This document shows, in pieces, positions 2,605-29,675 of a stretch of 29,675 nt of DNA. Source of the stretch: a virus; the IMG/VR virus record IMGVR_UViG_3300025889_012404, positions 1 through 29,675 of that record; one strand, 5' to 3'. A model generated the notes under the pieces. It was given only the letters and a program-made list of their open reading frames with translations. It ran no database searches and was not told the origin of the DNA. The first letter of the stretch is position 1. Each line of letters begins with the position of its first letter. The translations under genes and the position numbers were made by a program.

Positions 2605-4046
2605 ATTATTCCCTCATAATCTACAAATTTCATATCATAATCTGACGTTTGGTATTCTCCAGGCGAGAGTCCAATTTTCTTTTCTAGCTTTAAAGTTCCA
2701 TCTTCTATCATTTTATCAACTGCTTTTTTAACCTCATGCATTGTGGATAATCCGTAGTCATCAAAAACAATGTATTCTGGATTTAACTTTAGTGCATTAC
2801 TAACATCACTAAAAACATTATTATATTTGTGGATGCAATCTATAAAAACAACTGATACATCTTTTAACAAGTCTTGTGGCCAACCCTGTTTACTATATGA
2901 ATCCATTTGAATATAATTTATGTTATCAAAATTATGATTTATTTCATTTCTAATATTAACATCATATAATTTAAAATTTTTACCACCCTTTAATTCTTTT
3001 TTTACAATCCAATCATTTCCTGAATCATCTTTGTATGGTGTCCAATGGTTGTTAACATAAACTTTCTTGAATAAAAAACTTAGCACTCTTGAAGTTAAAC
3101 CTATGTTAGCACCAACTTCATAAACATCTTTATCTTTATATTTGTCTCCGAAAAAACTAATCAAGTCTCTTTTGAACTCATTAGATGTTGTATCTCTATG
3201 ACTAAACTTATCTTTTTGTAAATTTAATAACGAGTCAAGTGGATTATCGGACTTACTATATAACTCCACATAGGTTCTTTTCATCCAATATTCGATGTGT
3301 CTCGGTTGTTCATTTTTTCCAGGTATTGCATTAAAATGATATATCCAACCGGCATCAAGAAAAGTTAACTCATCTGGCCACCAACTATATCCTGGAATAT
3401 GCAATAAGTTCTTGTTATATAAATCACCAAAATTATATCTTTCAGGTAAAATATTTTTATTTACTTTATGTTTTTTAAGTAAAAAGTTTATTATAGTTTG
3501 TCCTGTACTTGGTATTGGTAAGTTTTGATATTTTTTGTTTAGTCTAATGTCATTTATAGTATCTATATTTTTAAGATAAAAATCTTTAACAATGTCTTGA
3601 AACCACTTATGTTTTTTGTTTAAAATAACAAAGCCCGAATTGTGATATTCCCATACTTTTGGTTTTTCCTCATCAGGAAATAAATGTTCTCCCCAACCAT
3701 TTATACCTCTTAAAACCCAATCATAACAACCATTGTTCAAAACTACCGAATATTCATCATTTGTTTCCTCAAAAAAGTTAGGACAATCTGGATGAATTAT
3801 GGTGTCTGAATCAACCACTGCAACTTGATTATAGTCTATATCATTATATTCTAATATGTCCAATACCCACTCTCTTTGATAGATAACTGGAAAATCCTCT
3901 ACCTCTATAATTGGTTCAGTCCACTCGATAACTTTAATGTCATCATATTGTTCCGCCCATTTTTTATAACTTTTTATTGAGTATCTATAAGGTGCATTTC
4001 TTCCGTCCCCACAATCTATGTTTGGTATGAATATAATGTTCTTCAT
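2589..4046 (-). CDS. Glycosyltransferase-methyltransferase fusion
   Basis: A 485-residue protein with two domains. Residues 1-265 look like a GT-A glycosyltransferase of the GT8-like kind: VAVVDSDTIIHPD (DSD at 79-81) gives the metal-binding motif, and EYHNSGFVILNK the usual NSGF-hhN acceptor-side motif. Residues 290-485 look like a class I SAM-dependent methyltransferase: DVYEVGANIGLTSRVL (motif I, about 307-322), then VVFIDCIHKYNN and IVFDDYG, as in small-molecule or sugar O-methyltransferases. The likely role is adding a sugar and methylating it, or methylating a neighbouring sugar on the same chain. The gene overlaps both neighbours, including an ATGA with the upstream oxidoreductase fusion. 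Each domain call is motif-based; the substrate is unknown. Confidence 0.75.
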   Translation of the reverse strand: MKNIIFIPNIDCGDGRNAPYRYSIKSYKKWAEQYDDIKVIEWTEPIIEVEDFPVIYQREWVLDILEYNDIDYNQVAVVDSDTIIHPDCPNFFEETNDEYSVVLNNGCYDWVLRGINGWGEHLFPDEEKPKVWEYHNSGFVILNKKHKWFQDIVKDFYLKNIDTINDIRLNKKYQNLPIPSTGQTIINFLLKKHKVNKNILPERYNFGDLYNKNLLHIPGYSWWPDELTFLDAGWIYHFNAIPGKNEQPRHIEYWMKRTYVELYSKSDNPLDSLLNLQKDKFSHRDTTSNEFKRDLISFFGDKYKDKDVYEVGANIGLTSRVLSFLFKKVYVNNHWTPYKDDSGNDWIVKKELKGGKNFKLYDVNIRNEINHNFDNINYIQMDSYSKQGWPQDLLKDVSVVFIDCIHKYNNVFSDVSNALKLNPEYIVFDDYGLSTMHEVKKAVDKMIEDGTLKLEKKIGLSPGEYQTSDYDMKFVDYEGIICSIK

Positions 4047-5740
4047 TGGTTCATCCTTTCAATTAACATTTTTGAAGCTCTAACACAAGTATCTATTTTA
4101 CCACTAAACAAACTATACACATTACCCCCCTCGTGATTAACTAATGTTGGTCTGGCATCATCGTGGTCTCTATCTTTTAACACGGCTCTTATTGTATACA
4201 TTGAACCTATGTGTTCCAAGTCTGCAAATTCATCTCCAAAATATTTTACTCCACTTTCAATAAATTTATCAATGTTAGTTATTTTTGGATTTCTAATTAA
4301 ACCTTTATTTAAATATGGTTTTAGTTCATCACTAACGATAGGTTTTGTTCCAACATTTGTTTCGTGTATTGCGTGAACAACATTTCCCAACACAAAGTCA
4401 TCTCCATACGGGTCTAAACACATAAAAGGGCCGTCCATTATCACGATACTTGTGTCATCAAAAAACTTAGGTAGTTTTACGACTGGTTTTTCACACACTT
4501 CAAACTGATACTCTTTCTTTTTATCTCGTAGTTGATTTATATTTGAATATGTAGCCAAAACTATGACATCATATTCTTCTTTGTATTTATCTAACTCTTT
4601 TATTTCTGAGTTAGTATGAACATTTATATATGAACCCCACAATTTATTCTTCATATTGTTTTGAAGTAAATTAGGATTAAATAGTTCTTCATCAGCCACA
4701 ATGGTCAAATCACAATTTGGCATTGGTTCTCTTTCTTCAAATGTTAAGTTCATATCGTTTAAAAATTCTTTATATTCATCTGCACTTACCAAACTATCTT
4801 CTGATGAAATTGAATACATATGAGTTATATCTCCGTTGACAACACAATCTTGATATTTTCTTTTAAATGAATACAATCCGTCTAAACACTCTTGTGCAGT
4901 TTCTTTACTTCGTGGATAATGATAACCTTTGTGTAATCTATATTGATTGATTGATGTCGCCCCACACATAATATCATTTGATTTTTCTTTTACATCAACC
5001 AAATAACCATTATTACTCAATTCAATCGCACTTGTTAGTCCGAATATTCCACCACCCACGACTAAGGCTTTTGGTGATATTGTATCTCTAACTTTTTGAG
5101 ATAGTCTAATGGCATTTAATGATACTTTTCTATTGTATTCATAGTTAATTCTATTTGAGAATATAAAATCAAACATTGTTTCTATTGGACTTCCAACATA
5201 ACTTATCATATCTGTTTCATTTACATAATGTAATTTCTCTTTTGAATATCCGTACTTAAATTCACCAACTCTTCCGTCCTCTAATTCTATTTTGAAATCA
5301 TCAAGTTGCCCCTCGATAGATTTTATTTCAAAGTTTGTATCCTCTACCCACATATAAAAGTGATGATATGCCAATCTGTCTAAATAATTATAATCTTTTT
5401 GATTTGGTTTTGTCCAAACAAAGTAATTCATATCATCGTAAATAGGATAATCATCTCTCCAAGTAAACACATCATCAACATATAATTTTACTTTAAACGA
5501 ATCTGCAATTTCATACAACTGAACTGCACTATCATAACTTAGTGTTAATGGTTTTTCACAAAATACATTTTTACTTTGTGATAACCAATACTTTGTTTGT
5601 TCGTAATGTAAATCATTTGGTGTAGATATGATTATCCAATCCGCCTCATTTGGTTCTACAAAACTAACCATAGATTCAATGTTCTTTTTTAGAACATTTC
5701 CCCACTTACCATTTCCTATTATGTGAACTTTTGTTTTCAT
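4043..5740 (-). CDS. Gfo/Idh/MocA-FAD oxidoreductase fusion
   Basis: A 565-residue two-domain enzyme. Residues 1-215 read as a Gfo/Idh/MocA NAD(P)-dependent sugar dehydrogenase: Rossmann start VHIIGNGKWG (5-14), IISTPNDLHYEQ, and the family's CEKPLTL (61-67), whose Lys is usually catalytic. Residues 224-565 read as a DAO-type FAD oxidoreductase: ALVVGGGIFGLTSAIEL (225-241) is the FAD-binding fingerprint, followed by INQYRLHKGYHYPRS and a late FVLGNVVHAIH. It sits between GDP-mannose 4,6-dehydratase and a glycosyltransferase, so a sugar-nucleotide or sugar-acid oxidoreduction is the natural guess. The Gfo domain is short for its family (usually 330-350 residues) and may have lost part of its C-terminal substrate sheet to the fusion. 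Confidence 0.78.
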   Translation of the reverse strand: MKTKVHIIGNGKWGNVLKKNIESMVSFVEPNEADWIIISTPNDLHYEQTKYWLSQSKNVFCEKPLTLSYDSAVQLYEIADSFKVKLYVDDVFTWRDDYPIYDDMNYFVWTKPNQKDYNYLDRLAYHHFYMWVEDTNFEIKSIEGQLDDFKIELEDGRVGEFKYGYSKEKLHYVNETDMISYVGSPIETMFDFIFSNRINYEYNRKVSLNAIRLSQKVRDTISPKALVVGGGIFGLTSAIELSNNGYLVDVKEKSNDIMCGATSINQYRLHKGYHYPRSKETAQECLDGLYSFKRKYQDCVVNGDITHMYSISSEDSLVSADEYKEFLNDMNLTFEEREPMPNCDLTIVADEELFNPNLLQNNMKNKLWGSYINVHTNSEIKELDKYKEEYDVIVLATYSNINQLRDKKKEYQFEVCEKPVVKLPKFFDDTSIVIMDGPFMCLDPYGDDFVLGNVVHAIHETNVGTKPIVSDELKPYLNKGLIRNPKITNIDKFIESGVKYFGDEFADLEHIGSMYTIRAVLKDRDHDDARPTLVNHEGGNVYSLFSGKIDTCVRASKMLIERMNQ

Positions 5741-6702
5741 CTACTCAGTAATTCTATATCGTTTTTGACCATTCTTTCTACCATATCATCAAATGATGTT
5801 TCTGGTTTCCACCCTAATTCACTTTTTGCCTTAGATGAATCTCCTGCGAGATAAAACACATCTGCCGGCCTCATAAATCTTGGGTCTTGTCCTACATACT
5901 TAGTCCAATCGGATACTCCAATATGTTGAAATGAACTATCTAAAAATTCTCCTAAACTTCTTACTTCACCAGTAGCGATAACAAAGTCATCTGGTTTGTT
6001 TTGTTGCAACATTAACCACATCGCCTCTACATAATCAGGTGCATATCCCCAATCTCTTTTGGTATCAAGATTACCTAAATATATTTTGTCTTGTAGTCCT
6101 AAGTGTATTTTTGCAATTCCGTCTGTAATCTTTCTTGACACAAATTCGTGTCCTCTTCTTTCAGATTCGTGATTAAATAATATTCCACTACAATTAAACA
6201 TATCATAACTCTCCCTATAATTAATTGTAATCCAATGTGCATACAATTTTGCAACTCCATAAGGGCTTCTCGGATAAAACATTGTCTTTTCACTTGCGAA
6301 CTTCTCCATTTTACCAAACATTTCTGATGTTGATGCCTGATAAAATTTTACATCTTCTCCATACTCTCTAATGGCTTCCAATACTCTTAAACAACCCAAA
6401 CCTGTTACATCACCAGTTTGTTCTGGTGTATTCCAACTCTCCCCTACGAAAGATTGAGAACCCAAATTATATACTTCGTCTGGTTTGGTTTCTCTTAATA
6501 CACGAACAATAGAGTTTTGGTCTGTCAAATCTCCATTTACGAATTGAAAGTTTTCATTACTTTCTAAGTGTTTTGTGTTTAGTCTGTTAGGTGTTGATGA
6601 ACGTCTTTCCATACCGAATACTTTGTATCCTTTTTCCAATAGGAAATCTGCCATATGACTTCCGTCCATACCTGTTATACCTGTAATTAATGCTCTTTTC
6701 AT
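5737..6702 (-). CDS. gmd: GDP-mannose 4,6-dehydratase
   Basis: A 321-residue extended short-chain dehydrogenase. It converts GDP-mannose to GDP-4-keto-6-deoxymannose, the precursor of GDP-fucose, rhamnose and perosamine. The specific signatures are present: GITGMDGSH for NADP binding at 8-16, STSEMFG with the catalytic Ser/Thr-Glu at 124-130, YPRSPYGVAK with the catalytic Tyr148 and Lys152, and the Gmd-typical FNHESERRG. It is slightly shorter than cellular Gmd proteins (about 345-375 residues). The 4-base overlaps with both neighbours place it in the same transcript. No obvious GDP-fucose synthase follows, so the keto sugar may feed another enzyme here or in the host. Confidence 0.95.
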   Translation of the reverse strand: MKRALITGITGMDGSHMADFLLEKGYKVFGMERRSSTPNRLNTKHLESNENFQFVNGDLTDQNSIVRVLRETKPDEVYNLGSQSFVGESWNTPEQTGDVTGLGCLRVLEAIREYGEDVKFYQASTSEMFGKMEKFASEKTMFYPRSPYGVAKLYAHWITINYRESYDMFNCSGILFNHESERRGHEFVSRKITDGIAKIHLGLQDKIYLGNLDTKRDWGYAPDYVEAMWLMLQQNKPDDFVIATGEVRSLGEFLDSSFQHIGVSDWTKYVGQDPRFMRPADVFYLAGDSSKAKSELGWKPETSFDDMVERMVKNDIELLSR

Positions 6703-7688
6703 TTTTCTAAGTCCTTATATTCATAAAATTTTCTATTTGTTTTACTGACTAAATTTTGTATATTTTCATCTGACAATCTTTTAAACTTATTAAACTTGTC
6801 GTTCTTTTTATTACCGAAAGAGTTTGGATTGTTTTCATCTAAAACATACAACCTTTTATTTGGGTGTCTTCTTGCGTGAACCTTTAATAGATTTTTAAAT
6901 ACAAATTGTTTGTAGTCTTGACCCATTAATTTTTCCGACATAATAGACATTCCGTGGTCATCATTGTAAATCATACAAGAAGGAATATTAACACCAAACT
7001 TTATCAAGTCTGATGACATTACTAAACAACTCCCGTCAAGTTTTGGATAATTAATTACTCTTATATCTAAGTCATCTACTTTAGAATTTATTTCGTTCAT
7101 TGTTTCTATTGGTAATAATGACTTTGCCTGATTTAAATTATTGTGTTGGTTATCATCATCAACAAACTCCACATCAACATAATCTATATGAACGGTGTCG
7201 TCCCAACTACTATCCCACATTTTTCTATCACCGAAACAAGCAATATATTTATGTATTCCGTTTTCGTTTGTGTATTGAGATAAAGTTTCTAATCCGATAA
7301 ATGCTTCTTTTGGAAAGAAACTATCTGTTTCACCCCACATAACATAATCTACTTTTTTACAATAATTGTAATTTAAATCTCTTCTGTAATCTGTATGAAA
7401 ATAAAACTCATCTTTTTCTACTTGAAAAGTATTTACCTCGTATCCAAGTTTTTTTATTTTATCTACACCTTTGTAAAACTTATCAATTATTCTAAATTCT
7501 TCAATCTGAGTTGTATCCATTTTTTCTAAGTGTTGAGATAAGTTCAAACACAAGTCAATAATAATATTTTCTTTATTTTCAATATCATTATCAAGTAAAT
7601 TTATTAGTCCGTCAATGAAATCTTTATACATTTCAATTTCAAACCACATTACATTTGTTCCGATTACATATTTGTTATTTAATATCAT
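6699..7688 (-). CDS. Hypothetical protein, possibly GT-A glycosyltransferase
   Basis: A 329-residue soluble protein that I cannot place in a named family. It has features expected of a GT-A sugar transferase: YVMWGETDSFFPKEAF, where ETD could be the metal-binding triad after a hydrophobic strand; GSCLVMSSDLIKFG, like the acceptor-side strand in GT2 proteins; and an acidic YNDDHGMS further on. The C-terminus is basic (VHARRHPNKR and a Lys-rich tail). It lies between the Gmd gene (4-base overlap) and the DUF115-like gene (14-base overlap), so a role in the same glycan pathway is likely. Confidence 0.5.
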   Translation of the reverse strand: MILNNKYVIGTNVMWFEIEMYKDFIDGLINLLDNDIENKENIIIDLCLNLSQHLEKMDTTQIEEFRIIDKFYKGVDKIKKLGYEVNTFQVEKDEFYFHTDYRRDLNYNYCKKVDYVMWGETDSFFPKEAFIGLETLSQYTNENGIHKYIACFGDRKMWDSSWDDTVHIDYVDVEFVDDDNQHNNLNQAKSLLPIETMNEINSKVDDLDIRVINYPKLDGSCLVMSSDLIKFGVNIPSCMIYNDDHGMSIMSEKLMGQDYKQFVFKNLLKVHARRHPNKRLYVLDENNPNSFGNKKNDKFNKFKRLSDENIQNLVSKTNRKFYEYKDLEK

Positions 7689-8460
7689 TTATATCCTTTA
7701 CTCTTTTTATTTTATCGTATGCCGGATTATCTCCGTCTGGGTCTACAATGGTTAATTCAACTCCTCTACTTTCTAAGTATTCATATAGTCCTTTGGTTTT
7801 CTTTGCTACCATAAGGTGTTCATTAAGACCTGCTAATGTTTTGGTATTTTTATATTCTATATCGTCATAAAACCAATCATCTTGTTTTTGACCAGACTTG
7901 ATTGTGTTTTTAAATAAATCCCAACCAATCGTTACGATTTTATCACAACCCATATATAATGCCAATGGAATAGCTAATTCGTACATTGTACCTGGCCCCC
8001 AAGGTCTTGAAAATCCTTTATTGATATCAAGTCCTTCCCAATAATCACTATGCGACATTGTGTTTTCTATTTTAGGAACTCCGTCATTGAGTTTGTAAGT
8101 GTCTAAAATAAAATCTACTGGAAAATTATCTATGATTGTGTATGGTTGTGATTCGTCCCAAACTGCCCAACCAACAATGGTGTCTTGATTTTTGTAATTG
8201 TATTGAGTTAAATTACAAAAGTTCAATAAATGGAAATCAGTTATTTCATCTATTATGTGTTGTGTTTGTTTGATAGACAATACCAACTTATCGTTTAACA
8301 ATGATTTTAAGTTATCGGTTGAGAATTGATTAAATGTTGGCCCTGATGTACAAATGTAAGCTGTTTCACCTTTATATACATCTTTCAATACACCAACTCT
8401 ATCGTATTGTTCTTCAAAATCCCACATTAATTTTTTGAGTTCTTTTGTTTTATCCTTCAT
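7675..8460 (-). CDS. DUF115/GT42-like protein, possible glycosyltransferase
   Basis: A 261-residue protein. Near the N-terminus GETAYICTSGPTFNQF resembles the nucleotide-binding GPS loop that begins DUF115 (MptE/Maf-like) proteins and GT42 sialyltransferases. Later PWGPGTMYELAIPLALYMG followed by KIVTIGWDLF matches the second conserved block of those families, a helix then a hydrophobic strand ending in G-x-D. The gene directly follows the CMP-sugar synthetase/aldolase gene with an 11-base overlap. That context favours a transferase using a CMP-activated sugar, but this is inference; Maf-like flagellin glycosylation or a pterin-type activity are alternatives. Confidence 0.55.
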   Translation of the reverse strand: MKDKTKELKKLMWDFEEQYDRVGVLKDVYKGETAYICTSGPTFNQFSTDNLKSLLNDKLVLSIKQTQHIIDEITDFHLLNFCNLTQYNYKNQDTIVGWAVWDESQPYTIIDNFPVDFILDTYKLNDGVPKIENTMSHSDYWEGLDINKGFSRPWGPGTMYELAIPLALYMGCDKIVTIGWDLFKNTIKSGQKQDDWFYDDIEYKNTKTLAGLNEHLMVAKKTKGLYEYLESRGVELTIVDPDGDNPAYDKIKRVKDINDIK

Positions 8461-10072
8461 ATCTTCTCTTTTTTTCCAATTCTAAATCTTGTAGTTCTTC
8501 AAATATATTTGAAATAGACTTTTCTTTTATTTCTTCTAATCTATATGGATGAACATTTAACATACCGCATATTGCTTCTTTTGTTCTTTTCTTTCTGGTT
8601 TCGTCTGTAATGTAAACATCTAAATATTCAAACAAACTATTGAGATTAAATTGATATCCTTTGTTCAATGATAAATACAATGTAAGTAATTCTAATCTTA
8701 GATTACCACCACCTCTTCCGATACCCGTGTAAGTTCCGTCAACCATATCTGCTCCGTTTTCAATTGCAGTAATGGTATTTGCCATACTCATTGACATATT
8801 GTCGTGTGAGTGGAATCCAATCAATACATTTGGATTCATATTTCTAAATATAGTGATAATCTTTCTTACATAGTCTGGTGTTAATGCTCCATAACTATCT
8901 GCGAAACATAAAAAGTCTAAAAAGTCTTCTGTTAATAGTTTTTCTCTAATCTTGACAAATGAATCAATGTCAATGTATGATGTACAAATAACATTTAATG
9001 AAACCTCATATCCGAGTCTTTTAATTTCTCTACACATTTCTAATGAATCATCAAGTTGTTCTTCATAACTACAAACTCTAATCAAGTCAATGTCTGTTTC
9101 TGAACTTGGGATTAGATTTTTTATATCGTATCTCCAAGAATCTATCATTACTGATATTTTACAATTTGGTTTCACATCATTTTTAATTTCACTAACCAAA
9201 TCAAATGGAATATTTTTCCATATACCAGCATCTTTTTTTACAAGTTCTGGATTAGTCAAATAACCTATTTCAAAATAATCATATCCAACATCTGAACTTG
9301 TTTTTAATGCTCGTTTCACATCTTCAATTGTAAAACTGAAGTTGTTTTCAAATCCACCATCTCTAATGGTACAATCCAAAACCTTGACTCTTTTTTTCTC
9401 TATTTGTTCTTTGATATTCTTTTCATAAATCAATTCTGCTATGTTAAAATCAAAAGGAACATCAACATCAATACCTTCAGTTTCTGTTAGTTCATACCAA
9501 TAAGGATTATCTCCAACTACATATTTGTTTTTAATCATCGTTTCTCTTGGTAATAAACAACCACCGAAGTTTAATCTAAATACTGATTCCATATCTTGAC
9601 TTCTTGGACAATTTAATGGGTCGTAGTTTAGTGGTTTATCGTCTTCCCATAAAAAGTCTTTCAAGTAATTCATCGTAACCACACTATCATATTTACTATC
9701 AAGATTTCTAAATGTGTTGATGATGTCTTCATAAGTTTCAGATTTAACTAATGGGGAAGTAACTGGTGTGTATAAAATATAATCTGTATCAACTTGTTCT
9801 GCTATGAATTTTAAGTTTTCACTACCTGGACAATCATTACTGGTGTAATAATCTGGTCTTCTCATTGGTGTTACTCCGAGAGTTTCTGCCAATGAATACA
9901 TTTTATCACAATCTGTTGTTACTACTATTTCGTCAAGATTTTTGACTTTTTGAAGTGTTTTGATTTTGTTTTCTAATAAACTTGTATCATTAAATGGTTT
10001 AATGTTTTTGTTTACTATTCTTTCAGAACCTTTTCTTACCCCGATTACTGCCGTGATTTTTCCGTTATTCAC
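8450..10072 (-). CDS. CMP-sugar synthetase-DRE-TIM aldolase fusion
   Basis: A 540-residue bifunctional protein. Residues 1-222 resemble acylneuraminate cytidylyltransferase (NeuA type): ITAVIGVRKGSERIVNKNI is a variant of the CTP-binding loop, TPVTSPLVK matches the PTSPLR block, and IDVDVPFDFNIAE (201-213) gives the metal-binding Asp residues. Residues 228-500 resemble HMG-CoA lyase/4-hydroxy-2-oxovalerate aldolase enzymes: VLDCTIRDGG (231-240) is the DxTLRDG signature, GFHSHDN (419-425) supplies the metal-binding H-x-H, and DGTYTGIGRGGGN (445-457) is the closing loop. A plausible role is aldol formation of a 2-keto acid sugar followed by CMP activation. The start is GTG at 10070-10072, supported by GAGG seven bases upstream; there is no nearby ATG. 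Confidence 0.85.
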   Translation of the reverse strand: MNNGKITAVIGVRKGSERIVNKNIKPFNDTSLLENKIKTLQKVKNLDEIVVTTDCDKMYSLAETLGVTPMRRPDYYTSNDCPGSENLKFIAEQVDTDYILYTPVTSPLVKSETYEDIINTFRNLDSKYDSVVTMNYLKDFLWEDDKPLNYDPLNCPRSQDMESVFRLNFGGCLLPRETMIKNKYVVGDNPYWYELTETEGIDVDVPFDFNIAELIYEKNIKEQIEKKRVKVLDCTIRDGGFENNFSFTIEDVKRALKTSSDVGYDYFEIGYLTNPELVKKDAGIWKNIPFDLVSEIKNDVKPNCKISVMIDSWRYDIKNLIPSSETDIDLIRVCSYEEQLDDSLEMCREIKRLGYEVSLNVICTSYIDIDSFVKIREKLLTEDFLDFLCFADSYGALTPDYVRKIITIFRNMNPNVLIGFHSHDNMSMSMANTITAIENGADMVDGTYTGIGRGGGNLRLELLTLYLSLNKGYQFNLNSLFEYLDVYITDETRKKRTKEAICGMLNVHPYRLEEIKEKSISNIFEELQDLELEKKRRYEG

Positions 10073-10919
10073 TTGTAACCTCGTTTATGTAATCTTCTAT
10101 ATTTCTTGTTGGTTCATATCCGATTAATCTTTTTGCTATCAATGTATTACAAAGAGTTTCTTTTGCTTCTCCTGGTCTTGCGTCAATATACTGAACATTC
10201 CAACTAAACATATCTGCCAATTCATTGATTGAGAAATTGTTTCCTCTACCTAATTCTATTTCGTCCCAACAAGTTTCGTTTTCAGATGTTAAAATTAATC
10301 CGTCCACAATATCATCAATGTGAGTAAAATCTCTTCTTTGGAATCCGTCTCCTGTAATAGTTAGTGGTTCTTGGTTTTTATATTGTCTTTCGAATATTCC
10401 GACTACCGTACAATATTCTCCCTCGGTTAATTGATGTGGGCCATATACATTATAAAATCTACAAATCGATACATTGACTCCGAAATGCTTTTTATACAAT
10501 AAACACATATCATCTGCAACTACCTTTGAAAAAGTATATGGATTTTTAAACTTACCACTATGAACTGATGATGAACCTGCGAAAACCATTCTTGGTTTGT
10601 TTTCTAATTCTTTAACCCACTCCAAGATATTCATCGTTCCTAAGATTCCAACTTCTAATGTATTTGCTGGTTTTTTAAATGAAGGTTGTATTCTTGCTAA
10701 TGCACCTAAATGATAAATTACATCTGGTTTTTCCATAAAATAACCAAAATCTACAACATCTCTAATATCACAATCATAATAAGTACAACCCTCTTGTTCG
10801 TTTTCTTTTTTACCTGTTGAATAATTGTCAAGACTAACGACATTGTGTCCGTCTTTTAATAATCGTTTAATTAGATTTGTTCCTACAAATCCTGCTCCAC
10901 CTGTAACCATTATATTCAT
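10065..10919 (-). CDS. NAD-dependent sugar epimerase/dehydratase
   Basis: A 284-residue extended short-chain dehydrogenase of the UDP-glucose 4-epimerase-like group. The NAD-binding GGAGFVG lies at 7-13 and the LDNYST strand after it is typical of nucleotide-sugar epimerases. The catalytic set is SSS at 116-118 and Y128-TFS-K132 (YxxxK). RFYNVYGPHQ and RRDFTHIDDIVDG are the usual substrate-binding blocks. It is shorter than GalE (about 330-340 residues). The ATG at 10917-10919 is preferred over a second ATG three codons later because it starts the first Rossmann strand fully. The next gene starts within its last codons. Which nucleotide sugar it uses cannot be told. Confidence 0.88.
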   Translation of the reverse strand: MNIMVTGGAGFVGTNLIKRLLKDGHNVVSLDNYSTGKKENEQEGCTYYDCDIRDVVDFGYFMEKPDVIYHLGALARIQPSFKKPANTLEVGILGTMNILEWVKELENKPRMVFAGSSSVHSGKFKNPYTFSKVVADDMCLLYKKHFGVNVSICRFYNVYGPHQLTEGEYCTVVGIFERQYKNQEPLTITGDGFQRRDFTHIDDIVDGLILTSENETCWDEIELGRGNNFSINELADMFSWNVQYIDARPGEAKETLCNTLIAKRLIGYEPTRNIEDYINEVTSE

Positions 10920-10927
10920 TTTTACTC

Positions 10928-11587
10928 CTAAATAATTGTATCGTATAATCTGTTTTGTTGTTCTTGTTTTTGAATTTCTTTTTCGTGTTTTAAAGTTAAT
11001 TCTTCGTGTGGTGGTAAATGAGAGTAAGTTTTTGCTCCGTCTATCACCTCGTGAACTGGTTTAACCCATTTAATATCATCGGTGTTTCTAAATATTCTTG
11101 CTTGATAATCTGGAAAGTTAATCCACCCTTGTTCAGTTTGTCTCCAATGCCAAAGATTTAAATGAAAGTCTGTAATACCATTCACGATATTAATTCTTGG
11201 AACCCATATTAAATCTGTATCATTGATTTCTAATATTTGTGGTAATTGTTCTATAAGTATTTTGTTAGGTATTTCATCTGCGTCAATGTGAAATATAAAA
11301 TCTCCTGAACAATGTTCTTTTGTATAGTTTTTTAATTCTGCAAAGTCTTTTTTAAAATTAAATGTAATTACTTTTAAATTTTTAAAATATTCTCCATACT
11401 CATATTTTTCCAATACCTTTTCCAATGCATTAAAGTCATCTTGAACAATACTCTTTTCCCCAACCTTTGAGATATCTCGTGTAACCACGACTTCATCGTC
11501 TTTTCTAATGTGTTTAGAAAGATGAAATAATAAATTATCCAATTCTTTATATTCATTATATACGGTTATTCCATAACTAAGTTTCAT
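10928..11587 (-). CDS. GT2-family glycosyltransferase (WaaE-like)
   Basis: A 219-residue GT-A enzyme. It starts KLSYGITVYNEYKEL, the family-2 opening, and has FHIDADEIP at about 99-107, with D-A-D as the metal-binding triad followed by the E-x-P seen in WaaE/KdtX-type beta-glucosyltransferases. Downstream INFPDYQARIFRN and WVKPVHEVIDG match the conserved W/FPDxQxRxFR and VHE blocks of the same subgroup. The small size is normal for it. It overlaps the upstream unknown gene by 4 bases and is 8 bases from the epimerase gene. It likely transfers a hexose in the glycan pathway; the acceptor is unknown. Confidence 0.88.
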   Translation of the reverse strand: MKLSYGITVYNEYKELDNLLFHLSKHIRKDDEVVVTRDISKVGEKSIVQDDFNALEKVLEKYEYGEYFKNLKVITFNFKKDFAELKNYTKEHCSGDFIFHIDADEIPNKILIEQLPQILEINDTDLIWVPRINIVNGITDFHLNLWHWRQTEQGWINFPDYQARIFRNTDDIKWVKPVHEVIDGAKTYSHLPPHEELTLKHEKEIQKQEQQNRLYDTII

Positions 11588-12084
11588 CGTAAATCCTCAA
11601 TCTTTTTAATCGTTTCATTAATTCTTTTTTTCAATGCTAAGTTATCTTTTGCTTTCTTAGGAAACTTTTGATAACTATCTAATAAAAATACTCTTCTTTT
11701 TCTACACTCTCTTAAAAAGTAAGTTCTAAAGATATCATTTTTCTTTAAAAATCTTTCCAGTAATTTGTAAATGTCTTCTGCTGTATTTTTGTCTGCTCTA
11801 TCTGGGTTATCTCCAACCTCTACAACTCCCTCGTCTAATGTTAATCCACCATAACGAGAAATCAACGTGTTAAAATTTCTAATATCGATTGGTGGTCTTA
11901 ACAATGTGTCTAATTGTAATCCCACTACAAACTCTACGATTCTACCTGTTGACTTTTTTCTATAACGATATTTTGGGTCAATAACCAATATTGTTCTTTG
12001 TTCACCTTTTGATGTTCCTTGTGATTTATAAACAAACCTAACTATTTGTCCTGGTTGTATTTGTTGCCAAGTGGTGTTTCTCAT
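11584..12084 (-). CDS. Hypothetical phage protein with beta-rich N-terminus
   Basis: A 166-residue basic protein, not recognised. Residues 1-60 (starting MRNTTWQQIQPGQIVRFVYK) look like a small beta barrel, possibly SH3- or KOW-like, with RTILVIDPKYRYRKKSTGR in the middle. The rest is helical and very rich in Lys and Arg, with an RECRKRRVF segment and a coiled-coil-like C-terminus. The shape suggests nucleic-acid or virion-component binding, but this is only a guess. It overlaps the zinc-ribbon gene upstream and the GT2 gene downstream by 4 bases each. Confidence 0.6.
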   Translation of the reverse strand: MRNTTWQQIQPGQIVRFVYKSQGTSKGEQRTILVIDPKYRYRKKSTGRIVEFVVGLQLDTLLRPPIDIRNFNTLISRYGGLTLDEGVVEVGDNPDRADKNTAEDIYKLLERFLKKNDIFRTYFLRECRKRRVFLLDSYQKFPKKAKDNLALKKRINETIKKIEDLR

Positions 12085-12536
12085 AAATCTTTAATGATTC
12101 CCATTTCTTTACAAGCATCTAAGAACTCATATTGTCCATATTCTTTTGCATTTTCTAAATCTAATGTGAACTCGTGTCCTTCATATTGTGGGTCTTTTTG
12201 TTCTTCTGGTGTTAACTTACGAACTTCTACTAACTTCCAGTTCCAGTTATTTTTTGTCCCGTCTGGATATATCACTCCTAATTTACCCATATTCAATGTT
12301 GTTGGAATCCAACTAATCTTTCTATCGTAATCAAAAAACACTACATCACGAACCAGTTGTGTTGATTTACTAAGTAAGTTATTAAATACTTCTGAATCTT
12401 TGGTGTATGAAGTATTACTGGTAAACCCACAATTAAAGCACATATATGATTTAAAGTTTTCAATTTGATTGATATCTTCTTCAAAACATTGTTTGTCATT
12501 TAAACAATTTGGACAAGTTATTTTTCTTTCTGCCAT
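12081..12536 (-). CDS. Zinc-ribbon phage protein of unknown function
   Basis: A 151-residue protein whose first 40 residues form a zinc ribbon: C8-x2-C11 (CPNC) and C33-x2-C36 (CFNC) separated by an acidic spacer. The remainder has a WIPTTLNMGKLGVIYPDGTK strand pair and WNWKLVEVRKLTPEE, with no motif I can name. Paired CxxC at the N-terminus suggests binding to nucleic acid or a protein partner. It starts two bases before the stop of the GT-B gene upstream and overlaps the next gene by 4 bases. Confidence 0.65.
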   Translation of the reverse strand: MAERKITCPNCLNDKQCFEEDINQIENFKSYMCFNCGFTSNTSYTKDSEVFNNLLSKSTQLVRDVVFFDYDRKISWIPTTLNMGKLGVIYPDGTKNNWNWKLVEVRKLTPEEQKDPQYEGHEFTLDLENAKEYGQYEFLDACKEMGIIKDL

Positions 12537-12537
12537 T

Positions 12538-13854
12538 TTATACCTTTTTTAGTTTTGGAAGTTTTACATCACTTTTCTTAACCAATTTAGGTAACTTTAA
12601 TGCTACTTCCTGTGGAACACCTTCTAACATTTTATCAACAATAGATATTAATTTCTCTTTCATTTTTTCGTGTGAAAAGTTTTCTCTATTGACTATCATT
12701 TGTTTTTTACCACGAATTTCATACTTTTTGTAGTTTTTGTAAACCTCTTTCAATATCTGAAGTGCTGTTCCGTAGTCTACCGTTGACCAGTATGCTTCTT
12801 GGTTTTGATATTCTTTTGGAAATGCACTATTTGGAACTTTGGTCATTGTGTGTGGTAGTTCAATTGTGTATTCTTTGTCCAAGAAGTCTGCTTGACCTGT
12901 TGAGATTGGTGCTATCAATGGTTTACCACTAAATGTTGCTTCTAACATTGGTCTACCGAATCCCTCTCCGTGTGTAAAGGTTAAATGTGCTTTCACTTTT
13001 GGGTGATTGTACATTTGGTTCATTTCCTCGTCTTTTAAATCTCCGTGCAATAAATAGATTTTAGGTAAGGTTTCTGCTTTCACTTCCTTTTTAATCATAT
13101 CTATTTTTTTCTTCATTTCATTTCTATCCATAACTGAGAAACTTGCACTACTGGTTTTCATAATTAGTGCAGGTGGGTTTTTGGTATTTTTAAATGCTTC
13201 TAAAAATACTTTCAACATCATACCGATGTCTTTTCTATCTTCACCCATATTTCCTTGTAACCAATGTCCTACGAATAGAAAACAAAAGTCTTCTTTGATT
13301 TTATCAAATTCATTTTTTAAATCTATTGTTGCTTCGTTAGTAACTTTATATATTTCTGGGTCTGCTCCTTCAAACAATACTTCTGTTGGTTTTTCCATTT
13401 TTAGTGTTCCAACTTTTTGTCTCGTTTGTTTGTCAATTCTATCAAATGAAGCGTTTTCAAATGATTCTTTACTAAACTCAGATGTAAAGATAGTCATATC
13501 CATACGATTTACACCCTCCACCCAGTCTGCTGGTGGAAGTGTATGTTCAATACCTGCTGTGATTCCGATATTCTTTTTACCTAATGGTTGAAATTCATTT
13601 GGAATTACAATGTGTAAATGTAAGTCTGGTTGTCTATCCATTCTTGGTTCTGGTAGTAATCTTTTGTATATTTCTAAATGATGTGGGTTTTTGTCTTCCA
13701 AAGCATTCATCGGTGTTGCTCCCCAACGAACTGGATTAATCTTAACATCATATTTATCTGATTCGATTAATGCTCTACAAATATCTCTTGAGTGGTTTCC
13801 ATATCCACTACGAGTTCCTACTGGTGCCGTTACTAATACTAATGGTTTGTTCAT
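12538..13854 (-). CDS. GT-B (GT4-like) glycosyltransferase with KLPKL tail
   Basis: A 438-residue two-domain GT-B enzyme. The N-terminal domain opens with a glycine-rich VTAPVGTRSGYGNHSRD loop. The C-terminal donor-binding domain has CFLFVGHW and the E-x7-E signature in HGEGFGRPMLEATFSG, followed by KPLIAP, as in family-4 retaining transferases. The last 19 residues contain two copies of a short peptide (KLPKLVKKSDV then KLPKLKKV). The same peptide opens the neighbouring glycosyltransferase, suggesting a docking tag or a recombination scar. The start overlaps the end of that upstream gene (ATGA). The enzyme probably works in series with it on the same glycan. Confidence 0.85.
   Translation of the reverse strand: MNKPLVLVTAPVGTRSGYGNHSRDICRALIESDKYDVKINPVRWGATPMNALEDKNPHHLEIYKRLLPEPRMDRQPDLHLHIVIPNEFQPLGKKNIGITAGIEHTLPPADWVEGVNRMDMTIFTSEFSKESFENASFDRIDKQTRQKVGTLKMEKPTEVLFEGADPEIYKVTNEATIDLKNEFDKIKEDFCFLFVGHWLQGNMGEDRKDIGMMLKVFLEAFKNTKNPPALIMKTSSASFSVMDRNEMKKKIDMIKKEVKAETLPKIYLLHGDLKDEEMNQMYNHPKVKAHLTFTHGEGFGRPMLEATFSGKPLIAPISTGQADFLDKEYTIELPHTMTKVPNSAFPKEYQNQEAYWSTVDYGTALQILKEVYKNYKKYEIRGKKQMIVNRENFSHEKMKEKLISIVDKMLEGVPQEVALKLPKLVKKSDVKLPKLKKV
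12541..12597 (-). repeat. Two copies of a KLPKL peptide-coding repeat
   Basis: These 57 bases encode the last 19 residues of the 438-residue glycosyltransferase as KLPKLVKKSDV plus KLPKLKKV. A third copy (KLPKLKKVSEV) is encoded at 15246-15278, at the start of the other glycosyltransferase. Codons differ between copies (CTT/TTA, CCA/CCT), so the similarity is at peptide level and not a recent DNA duplication. Confidence 0.6.
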
Positions 13855-18108: not shown

Positions 18109-18736
18109 AATGACAAAAATCTTTGTTTTGTTCGTAAAAGTTTTTTAATTCTTCCCAATTGCCGATGTTTTTAAAATTATCTTCGGTGTTTAATTTTACA
18201 CCTGAAAAGAATCCATACAAGTCTTCATAAAACAATACTCTTGAGTTTCTGTGAGATTTTAGATATTCTATGGTGTTGTTTGTTATTTCTTTGATACCTA
18301 TGATATCTTTTTTTATGTCATCAATTGATATTGTATCGACTTTTATTTTGTTGTATTGTTGTTTTTCTTTTTTCGTTAGAGTTTCCACCCCAAAATCTAC
18401 TGCTCTCCACTTTTCTGTTTTCTTTGCGAGATTTAAAGATAGTGATTGTAAAAATACATTTCTTCTTGACAAAAAGAAAACCATATCGTGATAGTCTATT
18501 ATATCGTTGTGTATTTTTTTCTTAGGATAAACACCAAACTTAATTCCAAAAGTATCATCGTTATCATACATTTTATCAAGAAATTTATCTACACCCATTG
18601 AGTTTATAATCTTTTCCGAGTGATTAAATTCTGGTTCCCATATAAATTTTTTAGATGAAATCTCTTGTAGTGTTTTACAAAACTCAGTTGTTCCACTACG
18701 ACTACAACCCAATACCAATACTTTATTTAAATGCAT
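18098..18736 (-). CDS. Sulfotransferase-like protein
   Basis: A 212-residue P-loop protein. KVLVLGCSRSGTTEF (5-19) is the PAPS 5'-phosphosulfate loop seen in sulfotransferases, and MVFFLSRRNVFLQSLSLNLA (about 85-104) corresponds to the 3'-phosphate block (R-x-x-x-x-x-x-S). A conserved WEPEF lies between them. The protein would transfer sulfate from PAPS to a sugar or tyrosine-like hydroxyl. It overlaps the last of three oxygenase genes by 14 bases and ends the cargo operon. Short length and missing C-terminal GxxG block leave some doubt about activity; a kinase-like P-loop is less likely given GCSRSGTT. Confidence 0.78.
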   Translation of the reverse strand: MHLNKVLVLGCSRSGTTEFCKTLQEISSKKFIWEPEFNHSEKIINSMGVDKFLDKMYDNDDTFGIKFGVYPKKKIHNDIIDYHDMVFFLSRRNVFLQSLSLNLAKKTEKWRAVDFGVETLTKKEKQQYNKIKVDTISIDDIKKDIIGIKEITNNTIEYLKSHRNSRVLFYEDLYGFFSGVKLNTEDNFKNIGNWEELKNFYEQNKDFCHFDL

Positions 18737-19337
18737 TTCCTAACATCCAAGTTAATACTGAATATCTAACACCACGAGTCAATGGTGATACTCTATGTCC
18801 TAAATAAGATGGAAACAAGATAAGACTTCCTTTTTTTCTACTACCGACTGCTGTGTTTTCACCTGTTTTGTCAGTCATACTAAACTCAAAATTTCCTCCG
18901 TCATAGTCATTTTCATCAGACAACTGAACAATGGCAGTAATTTTACGAACTGATGTTTCTTCATTTCCAATGTCTAAATGCCAGTCATATTTTCCTGTGT
19001 CTTCATATCTCAACATACGAACATTAGAAAACTCATTTGCTATGTCAAAATTAAAAAATAATCTATTTGCCATTTCACAAGCCATCATTAAATTTTTATT
19101 TAAATTAAATCCGTCTGACAATACAATTTCTTCTGAAAATCTTACTTCTTGGACTTTACGAACATTTTCATTTACAATGTCTGCTCCGTTTCCATTATAA
19201 GTTCCTGCTACGGTGGCTTTGTATTGTTCTGAATTATCAAACATTTTGATTAACTCATCACACCTTTGTTCAGTCAAGAAGTCATCTTTGTGAACTACAA
19301 ACTTAAAGTTTTTCTTTTGTGTTAGATTTTCTATCAT
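18723..19337 (-). CDS. 2-oxoglutarate/Fe(II) oxygenase 3 (P4H-like)
   Basis: A 204-residue prolyl-4-hydroxylase-like dioxygenase. The iron ligands are His120 and Asp122 in YDWHLDIG and His181 in LGHRVSPL; Arg191 in GVRYSVLTW would bind 2-oxoglutarate. The spacing H-x-D-x58-H-x9-R and the GSLILFPSYLGH block are typical. It is complete and of normal domain length, with the preceding oxygenase overlapping by 4 bases. It likely hydroxylates a protein residue or small molecule; the target is not visible. Tandem position with two relatives suggests duplication. Confidence 0.92.
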   Translation of the reverse strand: MIENLTQKKNFKFVVHKDDFLTEQRCDELIKMFDNSEQYKATVAGTYNGNGADIVNENVRKVQEVRFSEEIVLSDGFNLNKNLMMACEMANRLFFNFDIANEFSNVRMLRYEDTGKYDWHLDIGNEETSVRKITAIVQLSDENDYDGGNFEFSMTDKTGENTAVGSRKKGSLILFPSYLGHRVSPLTRGVRYSVLTWMLGNAFK

Positions 19338-19954
19338 CTAAAATGGTCTCCAATAAATAACTCTTGTAAAACATATCTTATTCCTTTAGTAACTGGTGTT
19401 ACATTGTGAGATAAGAATGTGGGAAATATAGTTAATGAACCTTTTAATTGGTTCATTGTATACCACTCTTTTGTATGTTTATCTTGTATTCCGAACTGAA
19501 CTTCTCCACCCTCGTATTCACTTGGGTCTGTAAGTTGGACAATCGCCACAAGCTTTCTATTAGAGCAACTACCTGCATTAAAATCTGTGTGCCAACCATA
19601 AAAACCTCCTTGATGATACTTGATAAGTTTTAACTCGTCATCTGCTCCGTCTATATCAAAGTGAAATACACCTTGATTTACCATTTTAACTACTTGGTAT
19701 ATTTTATCTTGTAACCATTTCCAATCTCCGTTACAATTATCTGGTCTAAATCTATTATCTGGTTGGTCAAATAAATACCATTCTTCCGTTACTCTTATTT
19801 CTGGTATGATTGCCGCTTCTCCTTTTTCACCACCAACTCCACCCGGAACCATTTGTTCTGTTGTGGTTATTTGTTCTATTAATTCATCACACTTTTCGTG
19901 TGATAAAAATGTAGGTATTTGTATTGAGTATTTAAAGTCATTGTTTAACTTCAT
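19334..19954 (-). CDS. 2-oxoglutarate/Fe(II) oxygenase 2 (P4H-like)
   Basis: A 206-residue dioxygenase closely matching the previous one in layout. Iron ligands are His122 and Asp124 in YGWHTDFN and His183 in LSHNVTPV, and the 2-oxoglutarate Arg is Arg193 in GIRYVLQEL. QLTDPSEYEGGEVQF is the usual strand before the distal His. The sequence between the N-terminal helix (FLSHEKCDELIEQI) and the HxD motif is glycine-rich and differs from its neighbours, so substrate choice may differ. It overlaps both neighbouring oxygenase genes by 4 bases. Confidence 0.92.
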   Translation of the reverse strand: MKLNNDFKYSIQIPTFLSHEKCDELIEQITTTEQMVPGGVGGEKGEAAIIPEIRVTEEWYLFDQPDNRFRPDNCNGDWKWLQDKIYQVVKMVNQGVFHFDIDGADDELKLIKYHQGGFYGWHTDFNAGSCSNRKLVAIVQLTDPSEYEGGEVQFGIQDKHTKEWYTMNQLKGSLTIFPTFLSHNVTPVTKGIRYVLQELFIGDHFR

Positions 19955-20490
19955 TTAAAAGTGTTCCCTTCTGCAAATGTTATTAAAGTGTATCTATCTT
20001 TTTCACTAAATTGTAAAACTTTGTGTGCTGCGAAAGCTGGAAATATAACTATTCTACCTTTTTTTACATCTATGATATTACCCCAAATGTCTAATTGTCC
20101 TCCCTCATAATCGTCATTTAAAAATATAACTGATGTAAGTTTTGTACAAGTGTTTACAACCTTTCCGTCTCCTGCTGCAAAATCTGAGTGATACTCATCA
20201 TCTACGACAAATGTATCTACTGGATATAATTTTCCACAAGAATGTTGAATGCCAGATATATCAAATTTATATACTAATGTATTTGATAAACTGACAACTT
20301 TCCATATTTTATCTATTAAATTTTTGTTTTGAGTTACTACATTTTTACAATTATGTAAACTTCCCCATACAAAATTGTCCGATTTAATATTTTCATCAAT
20401 AGATTTTATTTCGTTATCACATTCTTCTGATGTTAAGAAATTATCTCGAACTAAAAACCATTTAAAATTGTGATTATGTATCAGACTCAT
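19951..20490 (-). CDS. 2-oxoglutarate/Fe(II) oxygenase 1 (P4H-like)
   Basis: A 179-residue dioxygenase, the shortest and most divergent of the three. Iron ligands are His101 and Asp103 in EYHSDFAAG and His156 in FAAHKVLQF, with Arg166 in KDRYTLITF as the 2-oxoglutarate anchor. DNFLTSEECDNEI at the N-terminus matches the helix that opens the other two. The ATG lies inside the last 17 bases of the four-Hint gene, so the oxygenases are translationally coupled to it. This makes the Hint protein a candidate substrate or functional partner. Confidence 0.9.
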   Translation of the reverse strand: MSLIHNHNFKWFLVRDNFLTSEECDNEIKSIDENIKSDNFVWGSLHNCKNVVTQNKNLIDKIWKVVSLSNTLVYKFDISGIQHSCGKLYPVDTFVVDDEYHSDFAAGDGKVVNTCTKLTSVIFLNDDYEGGQLDIWGNIIDVKKGRIVIFPAFAAHKVLQFSEKDRYTLITFAEGNTFK

Positions 20491-29367: not shown

Positions 29368-29675
29368 TTAGAAGTTGATTGTCAAACCAACATTAGCATA
29401 TCTTGGTGTTCCCAAGAATACTTCTGCGTTATGTGGTAAGTGTTGTTTACTACCATATCCATTGTATTGACTATTATCAACTGCGTCTTGAACAAATACC
29501 TCATCAAGAACATTAAAGATGTGTCCTGTTAAAGTCATATCTAAGTCATTGATTTTTGGTAATTTGTAAGACATATGTAAGTCAAGTCTTGAGTAACCTG
29601 GGGCTTCCCAAACTTGAGCTCTGTCTGCGTCAGCGTCTGACCCGTCAAATTCACGAGCAGATGGTGACCAGTCTG
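29368..29675 (-). CDS. TonB-dependent receptor, 3' end only
   Basis: The frame is open from the right edge to TAA at 29368-29370 and gives the last 101 residues. GYSRLDLHMSYKLP, GHIFNVLDEVFVQDA (the NxxD turn), HNAEVFLGTPRYANVGLTINF are the typical final barrel strands of TonB-dependent receptors, ending in an aromatic Phe as outer-membrane barrel proteins do. The family imports siderophores, vitamins or glycans. The 95 bases at the window edge are about 54% GC by hand count (51 of 95), richer than the neighbouring phage genes, though the rest of the fragment is near 33%. Start and plug domain are outside the window. Confidence 0.85.
   Translation of the reverse strand, partial: DWSPSAREFDGSDADADRAQVWEAPGYSRLDLHMSYKLPKINDLDMTLTGHIFNVLDEVFVQDAVDNSQYNGYGSKQHLPHNAEVFLGTPRYANVGLTINF

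Follow-up and report, generated by a model that had tools for sequence, protein, structure and literature searches.

A phage-encoded fusion of a NeuA-type CMP-ulosonate synthetase with a DRE-TIM aldolase, and a possible pyruvate-dependent route to CMP-activated ulosonic acids

The virus record IMGVR_UViG_3300025889_012404 of IMG/VR, analyzed over its whole length of 29,675 nucleotides and hereafter called the window, carries a gene that joins a NeuA-type cytidine monophosphate (CMP)-ulosonate synthetase to a DRE-TIM metal aldolase. The open reading frame (ORF) lies on the minus strand at 8450-10072 (10072 to 8450), starts with GTG and encodes 540 amino acids; the plus strand over the same positions is packed with stops. 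Sequence, structural model and active-site alignment agree, and the fused ORF is real. Sialic, pseudaminic and legionaminic acids as well as 3-deoxy-manno-octulosonate (Kdo) are built by synthases that depend on phosphoenolpyruvate (PEP). We consider it probable that the fused protein instead makes a CMP-activated ulosonic acid in two steps, independently of PEP. The wider claim would be an undescribed and widespread route to CMP-2-ulosonic acids in T4-like and other phages and in gut bacteria, in which a DRE-TIM pyruvate aldolase replaces NeuB or KdsA and a fused or adjoining synthetase drives the aldol step; we give this claim an even chance.

Hereafter, ALD denotes the second half of the window protein (residues 226-540) and its family. 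An initial annotation, made from the letters alone, had likened the N-terminal half to NeuA and the C-terminal half to metal-dependent aldolases, and domain searches bore out both assignments. The NeuA/PseF-like synthetase domain comprises residues 1-222 (9407-10072, minus strand), with a Pfam CTP_transf_3 match at residues 8-130 (E 3.4e-11, 43.8 bits against a cut-off of 22.6). By sequence it matches PDB entry 9T4Z, PpNeuA (E 1.8e-14), which is described in its record as CMP-Kdn synthetase. The aldolase domain, HMGL-like and of the 3DXI type, spans together with a helical C-terminal tail residues 226-540 (8453-9397, minus strand). Pfam HMGL-like covers residues 228-471 (E 9.6e-25, 87.9 bits against a cut-off of 29), and PDB entries 3DXI (E 1.6e-41) and 1NVM (E 2.5e-18) match by sequence. 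An AlphaFold2 model of the fused protein, with a mean predicted local distance difference test score (pLDDT) of 89.5, gave corresponding structural matches: 3DXI (Z 29.6) and 1NVM, which is DmpG (Z 27.3), for the aldolase half, and 1EYR, the meningococcal CMP-N-acetylneuraminate (CMP-Neu5Ac) synthetase (Z 26.0), and 9T4Z (Z 25.6) for the synthetase half. Thus, by profile and fold, the N-terminal half belongs to the NeuA-type CMP-ulosonate synthetases, and the C-terminal half has the profile, the TIM-barrel, the catalytic arginine and the Asp/His/His metal site of the DRE-TIM metallolyase superfamily. More specific profiles were not reached by the window protein: it scores 60.7 against a cut-off of 205.7 for the PseF equivalog TIGR03584, and 90.7 against 286 (TIGR03217) and 100.8 against 229 (NF006049) for 4-hydroxy-2-oxovalerate (HOA) aldolases.

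The active sites of both halves are largely in place. The ALD alignment comprised 121 non-redundant rows of viral, plasmid and bacterial origin, after removal of repeats and of fragments shorter than 230 residues. R237, D238, E268, R332, D392, H421, H423, D445, G452, G456 and N457 are invariant in all 121. R237 and D238, the catalytic arginine and the metal-ligand aspartate of the RDGG motif (9359-9364, minus strand), align with the RD motif of DmpG, and the metal-ligand histidines of H421-S-H423 (8804-8812, minus strand) align with its HxH ligands. The initial annotation had named a loss of metal-site residues as fatal to its reading; with D238, H421, H423 and N457 kept in every row, the aldolase metal site is intact. 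In the synthetase half, R13, K22, N23, D202 and D204 represent the N-terminal motif, with its catalytic arginine and lysine, and the metal-binding DxD motif of CMP-ulosonate synthetases. Across 29 ALD-linked rows, K22, N23, R72, D204 and D208 are kept throughout and D202 in 28. D202 and D204 align with Asp209 and Asp211 of the meningococcal CMP-Neu5Ac synthetase, mutation of which cripples that enzyme, and a third metal-site residue there is Gln104, according to passages of PMC2901514.

The following mechanism can be envisioned. The DRE-TIM domain would bind a divalent metal (via D238, H421 and H423) and pyruvate, and the pyruvate enolate would attack the aldehyde of a free or phosphorylated sugar, giving a 3-deoxy-2-ulosonic acid. 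The NeuA-type domain would then couple this acid to cytidine triphosphate (CTP), yielding a CMP-sugar and pyrophosphate. As precedent, HOA-type DRE-TIM aldolases join pyruvate and an aldehyde to a 2-keto-3-deoxy acid with a 4-hydroxyl, and such acids are the substrate class that NeuA and KdsB couple to CMP. The pyruvate aldol reaction is reversible; the NeuB and KdsA reactions are driven by PEP. Formation of the CMP-sugar would pull the reversible aldol step forward and stop the intermediate from leaking, which might be why ALD-synthetase fusions recur. A Maf/CstII-like transferase encoded downstream would probably attach the sugar to a glycan of the phage or its host. Of these elements, we infer the donor pyruvate, the aldehyde, the reaction direction, the product and the acceptor.

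The fusion is not confined to the window. A profile scan of viral contigs gave 68 loci, which together with the window form 45 non-redundant groups; the 46 viral records counted below are these groups plus L043, a near-copy of L037. The NeuA-ALD architecture of the window recurs in L002, L007 and L008 with 99, 86 and 69% identity, respectively, and one record, L011, holds the reverse-order ALD-NeuA fusion. Furthermore, in 22 of the 46 records ALD is fused ahead of a KdsB-type cytidylyltransferase, judged by position, frame and score of the PF02348 match. Among these KdsB-type partners, those of L043 (272.8), L036 (270.5) and L063 (264.6) exceed the curated NF009905 cut-off of 255 for 3-deoxy-manno-octulosonate cytidylyltransferase. 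Other ALD genes adjoin a separate cytidylyltransferase gene (e.g., L009, L010, L016, L027, L070), and PF02348 is present in 37 of the 46 records. With three further viral records of the same architecture, and with other orders and partner types, a one-off event or an assembly join as origin of the fusion is ruled out. Full-length relatives did not appear in other collections: a tblastn search with the fused protein matched 2 phage and 248 plasmid records, and a second phage-collection search with the L043 protein matched nine, none of them covering 80% of the query, and the fused protein matched no PHROGs family. The KdsB-type partners suggest pentose substrates, and hence eight-carbon, Kdo-like acids, in many relatives, so that the label 'nonulosonic', under which the initial annotation had placed the product, is too narrow. 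For the window itself a hexose or modified hexose is equally likely as the aldehyde, given the NeuA/PseF-like partner and the preceding epimerase gene.

If ALD replaces the PEP-dependent synthases, these should often be missing from its surroundings. NeuB (PF03102) is found in only 5 of the 46 viral records and DAHP/KdsA (PF00793) in one, in a gene already counted among these five; 41 records have neither. In the window record both searches gave zero matches, although this record is incomplete and NeuB could come from the host. In each of the five NeuB-bearing records (G010, G027, G028, G029, G031) the synthase sits beside its own second, NeuA-like cytidylyltransferase, and ALD keeps the fused one. 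Standard counterparts exist as well: cyanophage S-SCSM2R has KdsB beside KdsA, and two enterobacterial plasmids have a NeuA-like gene two genes ahead of a NeuB-family gene. Ten bacterial genomes were searched likewise, and strong NeuB matches occurred in two (G050, G055). Bacterial genomes also gave weak PF03102 matches (E 1e-6 to 1e-8); where both families were searched, these coincide with DAHP-synthase-like genes, and they were not taken as NeuB.

The initial annotation had also proposed looking for separate homologues that occur together in other glycan loci, and such pairs exist in bacteria. Our bacterial genome scan returned at least 580 relatives, of which the best 80 loci were kept. 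In 12 of these (L078-L082, L086, L089, L090, L099, L117, L133, L138) a NeuA gene lies directly ahead of an ALD gene of about 524-577 codons. A HAD phosphatase follows ALD in L080 (Pfam 1.8e-36) and, by clustering, also in L082, L090 and L117, and one is present in the L153 locus; such a neighbor would fit a need for KdsC-like dephosphorylation. The L153 locus (7553-12708) is a differently equipped cluster, in which a gene for ALD with an MptE-like extension is followed by genes for an LdpA-like Fe-S protein, the HAD phosphatase and a cytidylyltransferase. In L163 (2280-3674), a 464-residue protein with two tandem cytidylyltransferase matches is encoded near NeuB.

The order Gastranaerophilales, to which G048 belongs, allowed a comparison of gene positions, as ALD occurs in 96 of its 146 genomes. 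We compared the best 55 of these 96, using best matches only. Weaker ALD-like rows (G184:C17, G126:C4, G163:C1:203743, G087:C1:408158, G099:C12) were left out, and so were, from the cytidylyltransferase list, weak rows with frames of 423-480 residues (GlmU-like by size) and G049:C20:26838 (151 residues). As 'non-KdsB' we counted any listed cytidylyltransferase match other than the single top-scoring KdsB-like gene of each genome; some ALD-linked ones are KdsB-like by match shape. A non-KdsB cytidylyltransferase lies within 2.5 kb of 23 of the 63 ALD genes, including 21 of the 27 long ALD frames. Viewed from the other side, there are 60 non-KdsB cytidylyltransferase genes among the matches listed, of which 29 have ALD within 2.5 kb, 7 have NeuB within 3 kb, and none has both. 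Among the genomes with an ALD-cytidylyltransferase pair, 14 of 20 lack NeuB at E 1e-15.

Phylogenetic analysis points in the same direction. In a careful NeuA tree the window NeuA falls into a 21-row clade (99/96) made up of ALD-linked NeuAs only, from phages, Gastranaerophilales, Clostridia and Bacteroidales; the rows of this tree were mostly fetched via ALD or via NeuB, and their labels are no random sample of NeuA genes. Exceptions are the NeuB-linked L160, inside a second, ALD-linked group, and the ALD-linked L017, which stands on a very long branch among NeuB-linked rows. This ALD-only clade and the exclusive pairing seen in Gastranaerophilales weaken the notion that ALD lies near just any polysaccharide gene. 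In a quick ALD tree, which has several long branches and in which every third stand-alone row was kept (21), the NeuA-ALD rows form one clade (100). The phage ALD-KdsB rows lie in a separate 28-row branch (98), where ALDs next to an unfused cytidylyltransferase gene are found as well; the label 'ALD-KdsB' was assigned by Pfam in 11 of 21 rows and in the rest by position, frame and score of the PF02348 match, with the C-terminal domains of L036, L043 and L063 typed as KdsB by NCBIfam. Because NeuA-ALD and ALD-KdsB rows stand in separate branches and the order is reversed in L011, the data point to at least three fusion events.

However, several observations weigh against the proposed route, and three other explanations have to be considered. 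Some of these observations concern the active sites. DmpG His21, the catalytic histidine of HOA aldolases after the RDG motif, corresponds to F241 in the window, and the 121 ALD rows have mostly leucine (64) or tyrosine (45) at this position, besides phenylalanine (6) and histidine (3). As the position is not conserved, the proton-transfer (acid/base) residue of ALD must differ from that of HOA aldolases. A candidate replacement as general acid/base is H508 in the C-terminal helical tail (8549-8551, minus strand), present in 117 of 121 rows. In the synthetase half the position of meningococcal Gln104 is taken by Pro103 in the window and by histidine, asparagine, proline or aspartate in most ALD-linked rows, although it varies in NeuB-linked homologues too. 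One might ask whether ALD is a Claisen-type DRE-TIM synthase that joins an acyl-CoA to a 2-oxo acid; the synthetase would then activate either the unusual acid so formed or some other, unrelated ulosonic acid. The same fold is seen in homocitrate, isopropylmalate and citramalate synthases (Z 22.8-25.1), which also match by profile, and Claisen-type relatives use a C-terminal catalytic histidine, which the conserved H508 together with the missing HOA histidine would fit. Yet the best profile and sequence matches of the ALD domain are HOA aldolase and 3DXI, and no acyl-CoA partner gene was seen. Moreover, condensation with an acyl-CoA does not give a 2-keto-3-deoxy acid with the free anomeric hydroxyl that CMP-ulosonate synthetases need. 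We therefore regard an acyl-CoA-dependent reaction as unlikely.

Other objections come from gene context. In six viral groups (L012, L031 at 8004-12221, L058, L061, L062, L064) ALD is paired with a thiamine pyrophosphate (TPP) enzyme and a cytidylyltransferase gene is missing, so that CMP activation is not the fate of every ALD product. The TPP enzyme is acetolactate-synthase-like, has about 600 residues and directly adjoins ALD in five of the groups; in five of the six a gene with a phosphoribosyltransferase domain then follows. These groups may represent another pathway, in which the same aldol product is used differently, for instance by being decarboxylated to a deoxy sugar that is two carbons longer. 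The same groups have genes like NAD-dependent sugar dehydratases nearby (cluster 2), and this context would also suit an ALD that acts on an activated or nearly finished sugar, by extending or branching a nucleotide-sugar chain, with the fusion channeling in the opposite direction. ALD products can therefore feed other chemistry. Nevertheless, the partner in the window is a CMP-ulosonate synthetase, whose substrate is a free ulosonic acid. Such genes accompany ALD in most viral records, as counted above, and three of the partners pass the KdsB cut-off. Action on an activated sugar thus appears rather improbable to us. Least plausible, and in our view very improbable, is salvage or turnover, in which the synthetase activates host-derived ulosonic acids and ALD breaks down host acid or any surplus: class II pyruvate aldolases work in both directions and their HMGL/HOA relatives mostly cleave in catabolism, but a fused lyase would destroy the substrate of its synthetase, and the bacterial pair sits in glycan gene runs of genomes that often lack NeuB and thus leave little to salvage.

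The family as a whole adds to these objections. Within Gastranaerophilales, 40 of the 63 ALD genes have no cytidylyltransferase nearby. A stand-alone ALD clade from Paenibacillus, Bacillus, Fibrobacter, Planctomycetota and others lacks cytidylyltransferase context, and an ALD-similar Legionella plasmid gene annotated as HOA aldolase sits with an isopropylmalate-dehydrogenase-like gene. Together with the TPP-enzyme groups, this means that the ALD family reaction is used in more than one pathway. Furthermore, the viral records are fragments, each absence of NeuB or KdsA being weak alone, and KdsA-type genes are present in many host cells. Among the genes of the window, no enzyme was recognized that would produce an obvious aldehyde substrate.

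The gene neighborhood of the fusion in the window is that of a phage glycan locus. The record is a fragment of a T4-like (tailed) phage with T4-like replication genes, namely a family B DNA polymerase, a clamp loader and a clamp-like protein. The fused gene is part of a long co-directed glycan gene run on the minus strand and overlaps the upstream gene by 8 and the downstream gene by 11 nucleotides. The downstream gene (7675-8460) encodes an MptE-like/Maf-flag10-type protein with a CstII-like fold, predicted to be a CMP-sugar transferase. Its match to PF01973 (E 4.2e-4, 20.6 bits) remains below the Pfam cut-off of 34.6, which its relative in L029 exceeds (39.0). The structural model (pLDDT 89.0) resembles 5MU5 Maf (Z 12.3), the MptE-type HPPK 8SD5 (Z 10.9) and 1RO8 CstII (Z 9.9) and so has the fold of the Maf central domain and CstII, a common fold which by itself is no proof of function. 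This family (cluster 4) occurs near ALD in 19 of the 45 viral groups. In bacteria, the extra C-terminal part of ALD matches the same MptE-like PF01973 weakly and below the cut-off in L153 (8.6e-6), L157 (1.9e-4) and L089 (2.4e-4), and the remaining long ALDs have a similar C-terminal part by eye and alignment. PF01973 is the Maf central domain and is related to CstII, and Maf enzymes use CMP-nonulosonic acids and accept CMP-Kdo, as stated in passages of PMC11339370. From the NeuA-ALD fusion in phage and the ALD-MptE fusion in bacteria we conclude that synthetase, ALD and Maf/CstII-like domain are a module whose parts are fused in differing pairs, the downstream gene of the window being the free-standing form.

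The genes of the window that follow here are likewise on the minus strand. The preceding gene (10065-10919) encodes a NAD-dependent sugar epimerase/dehydratase, LegB/GalE-like (Pfam Epimerase 1.6e-45, below the NCBIfam equivalog cut-offs), which may shape the aldose. Further upstream in the same run lies a family 2 glycosyltransferase gene (10928-11587; PF00535 1.6e-10; cluster 6, in 16 of 45 viral groups). On the other side, a gene without Pfam match (6699-7688; cluster 7, in 15 of 45 viral groups) accompanies the one for the MptE-like protein and is followed, still in this run, by gmd for GDP-mannose 4,6-dehydratase (5737-6702; NCBIfam TIGR01472 417.5 bits against a cut-off of 415). At 4043-5740 a Gfo/Idh/MocA-type NAD oxidoreductase part is fused to an FAD-dependent DAO oxidoreductase; a relative of this gene follows the same neighbors in L007, and other genes take that place in L002. 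Three consecutive genes for 2-oxoglutarate-Fe(II) oxygenases form a tandem array at 18723-20490 (PF13640 1.9e-15, 4.3e-13 and 8.2e-8). An odd multi-Hint phage protein of 892 residues with consecutive Hint/intein-like modules (Intein_splicing, PT-HINT, Hint) is encoded at 20474-23152. The open-ended frame at the record end (29368-29673) has no Pfam match; by eye it looks to us like the C-terminal strand region of a TonB-dependent receptor, and it may be host DNA or a chimeric end.

Taken together, the route foreseen by the initial annotation, from pyruvate and a sugar aldehyde to a 2-keto acid trapped as its CMP derivative, gains from the recurrent fusion to two classes of CMP-ulosonate synthetases, from the NeuA pairing in bacteria often without NeuB, and from the Maf/CstII-like neighbor or fused domain; it loses from the replaced DmpG and meningococcal residues. 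An open-access literature search returned no description of an ALD-synthetase fusion or of such a role for the ALD family, and no paper with both 'acylneuraminate cytidylyltransferase' and 'oxovalerate aldolase'; a term search did not find 'aldolase' in the searchable text of PMC5109656 and PMC12940168. If the proposed route is true, genome annotation has overlooked makers of ulosonic acids, and NeuA genes that lack a NeuB would cease to be orphans. Furthermore, a reaction would be defined for the family of 3DXI, a structural-genomics enzyme, and glycan synthesis would gain a route in which a single protein makes CMP-sugars from pyruvate, an aldose and CTP. The proposed route further suggests that synthetase-aldolase and transferase serve these phages as a compact kit with which to decorate themselves or their host.

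Compared with known systems, the window most resembles the NeuB/NeuA, PseI/PseF and LegI/LegF pathways in its NeuA-type synthetase, the presumed 3-deoxy-2-ulosonic acid substrate and the adjoining Maf/CstII-type transferase. It differs from the NeuB/NeuA pathway in that a DRE-TIM aldolase, fused to the synthetase, takes the place of the PEP-dependent NeuB. With KdsA/KdsC/KdsB, the pathway to CMP-Kdo, the ALD family shares KdsB-type C-terminal partners in many relatives and a HAD phosphatase in bacterial loci, whereas KdsA-type genes are absent from 45 of the 46 ALD-bearing viral records and from the window record. The HOA aldolases DmpG and BphI are alike in fold, RDG motif, HxH metal site and the logic of a channeling partner. 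In contrast to them, ALD stays below the curated cut-offs, does not conserve His21 and has a cytidylyltransferase instead of an acetaldehyde dehydrogenase as partner. The closest solved relative of the ALD domain is 3DXI, the 'putative aldolase' BVU_2661 of Bacteroides vulgatus, which belongs to CDD DRE_TIM_HOA_like; its title names no reaction, whereas the ALD family is found here in a CMP-sugar context. The downstream protein shares its fold with Maf, CstII (GT42) and MptE but differs from them in its Pfam score below the cut-off. Finally, N-acetylneuraminate lyase (NanA) is likewise a reversible pyruvate aldolase that yields ulosonic acids; however, it is a class I Schiff-base enzyme of the DHDPS family and, unlike ALD, no member of the DRE-TIM superfamily.

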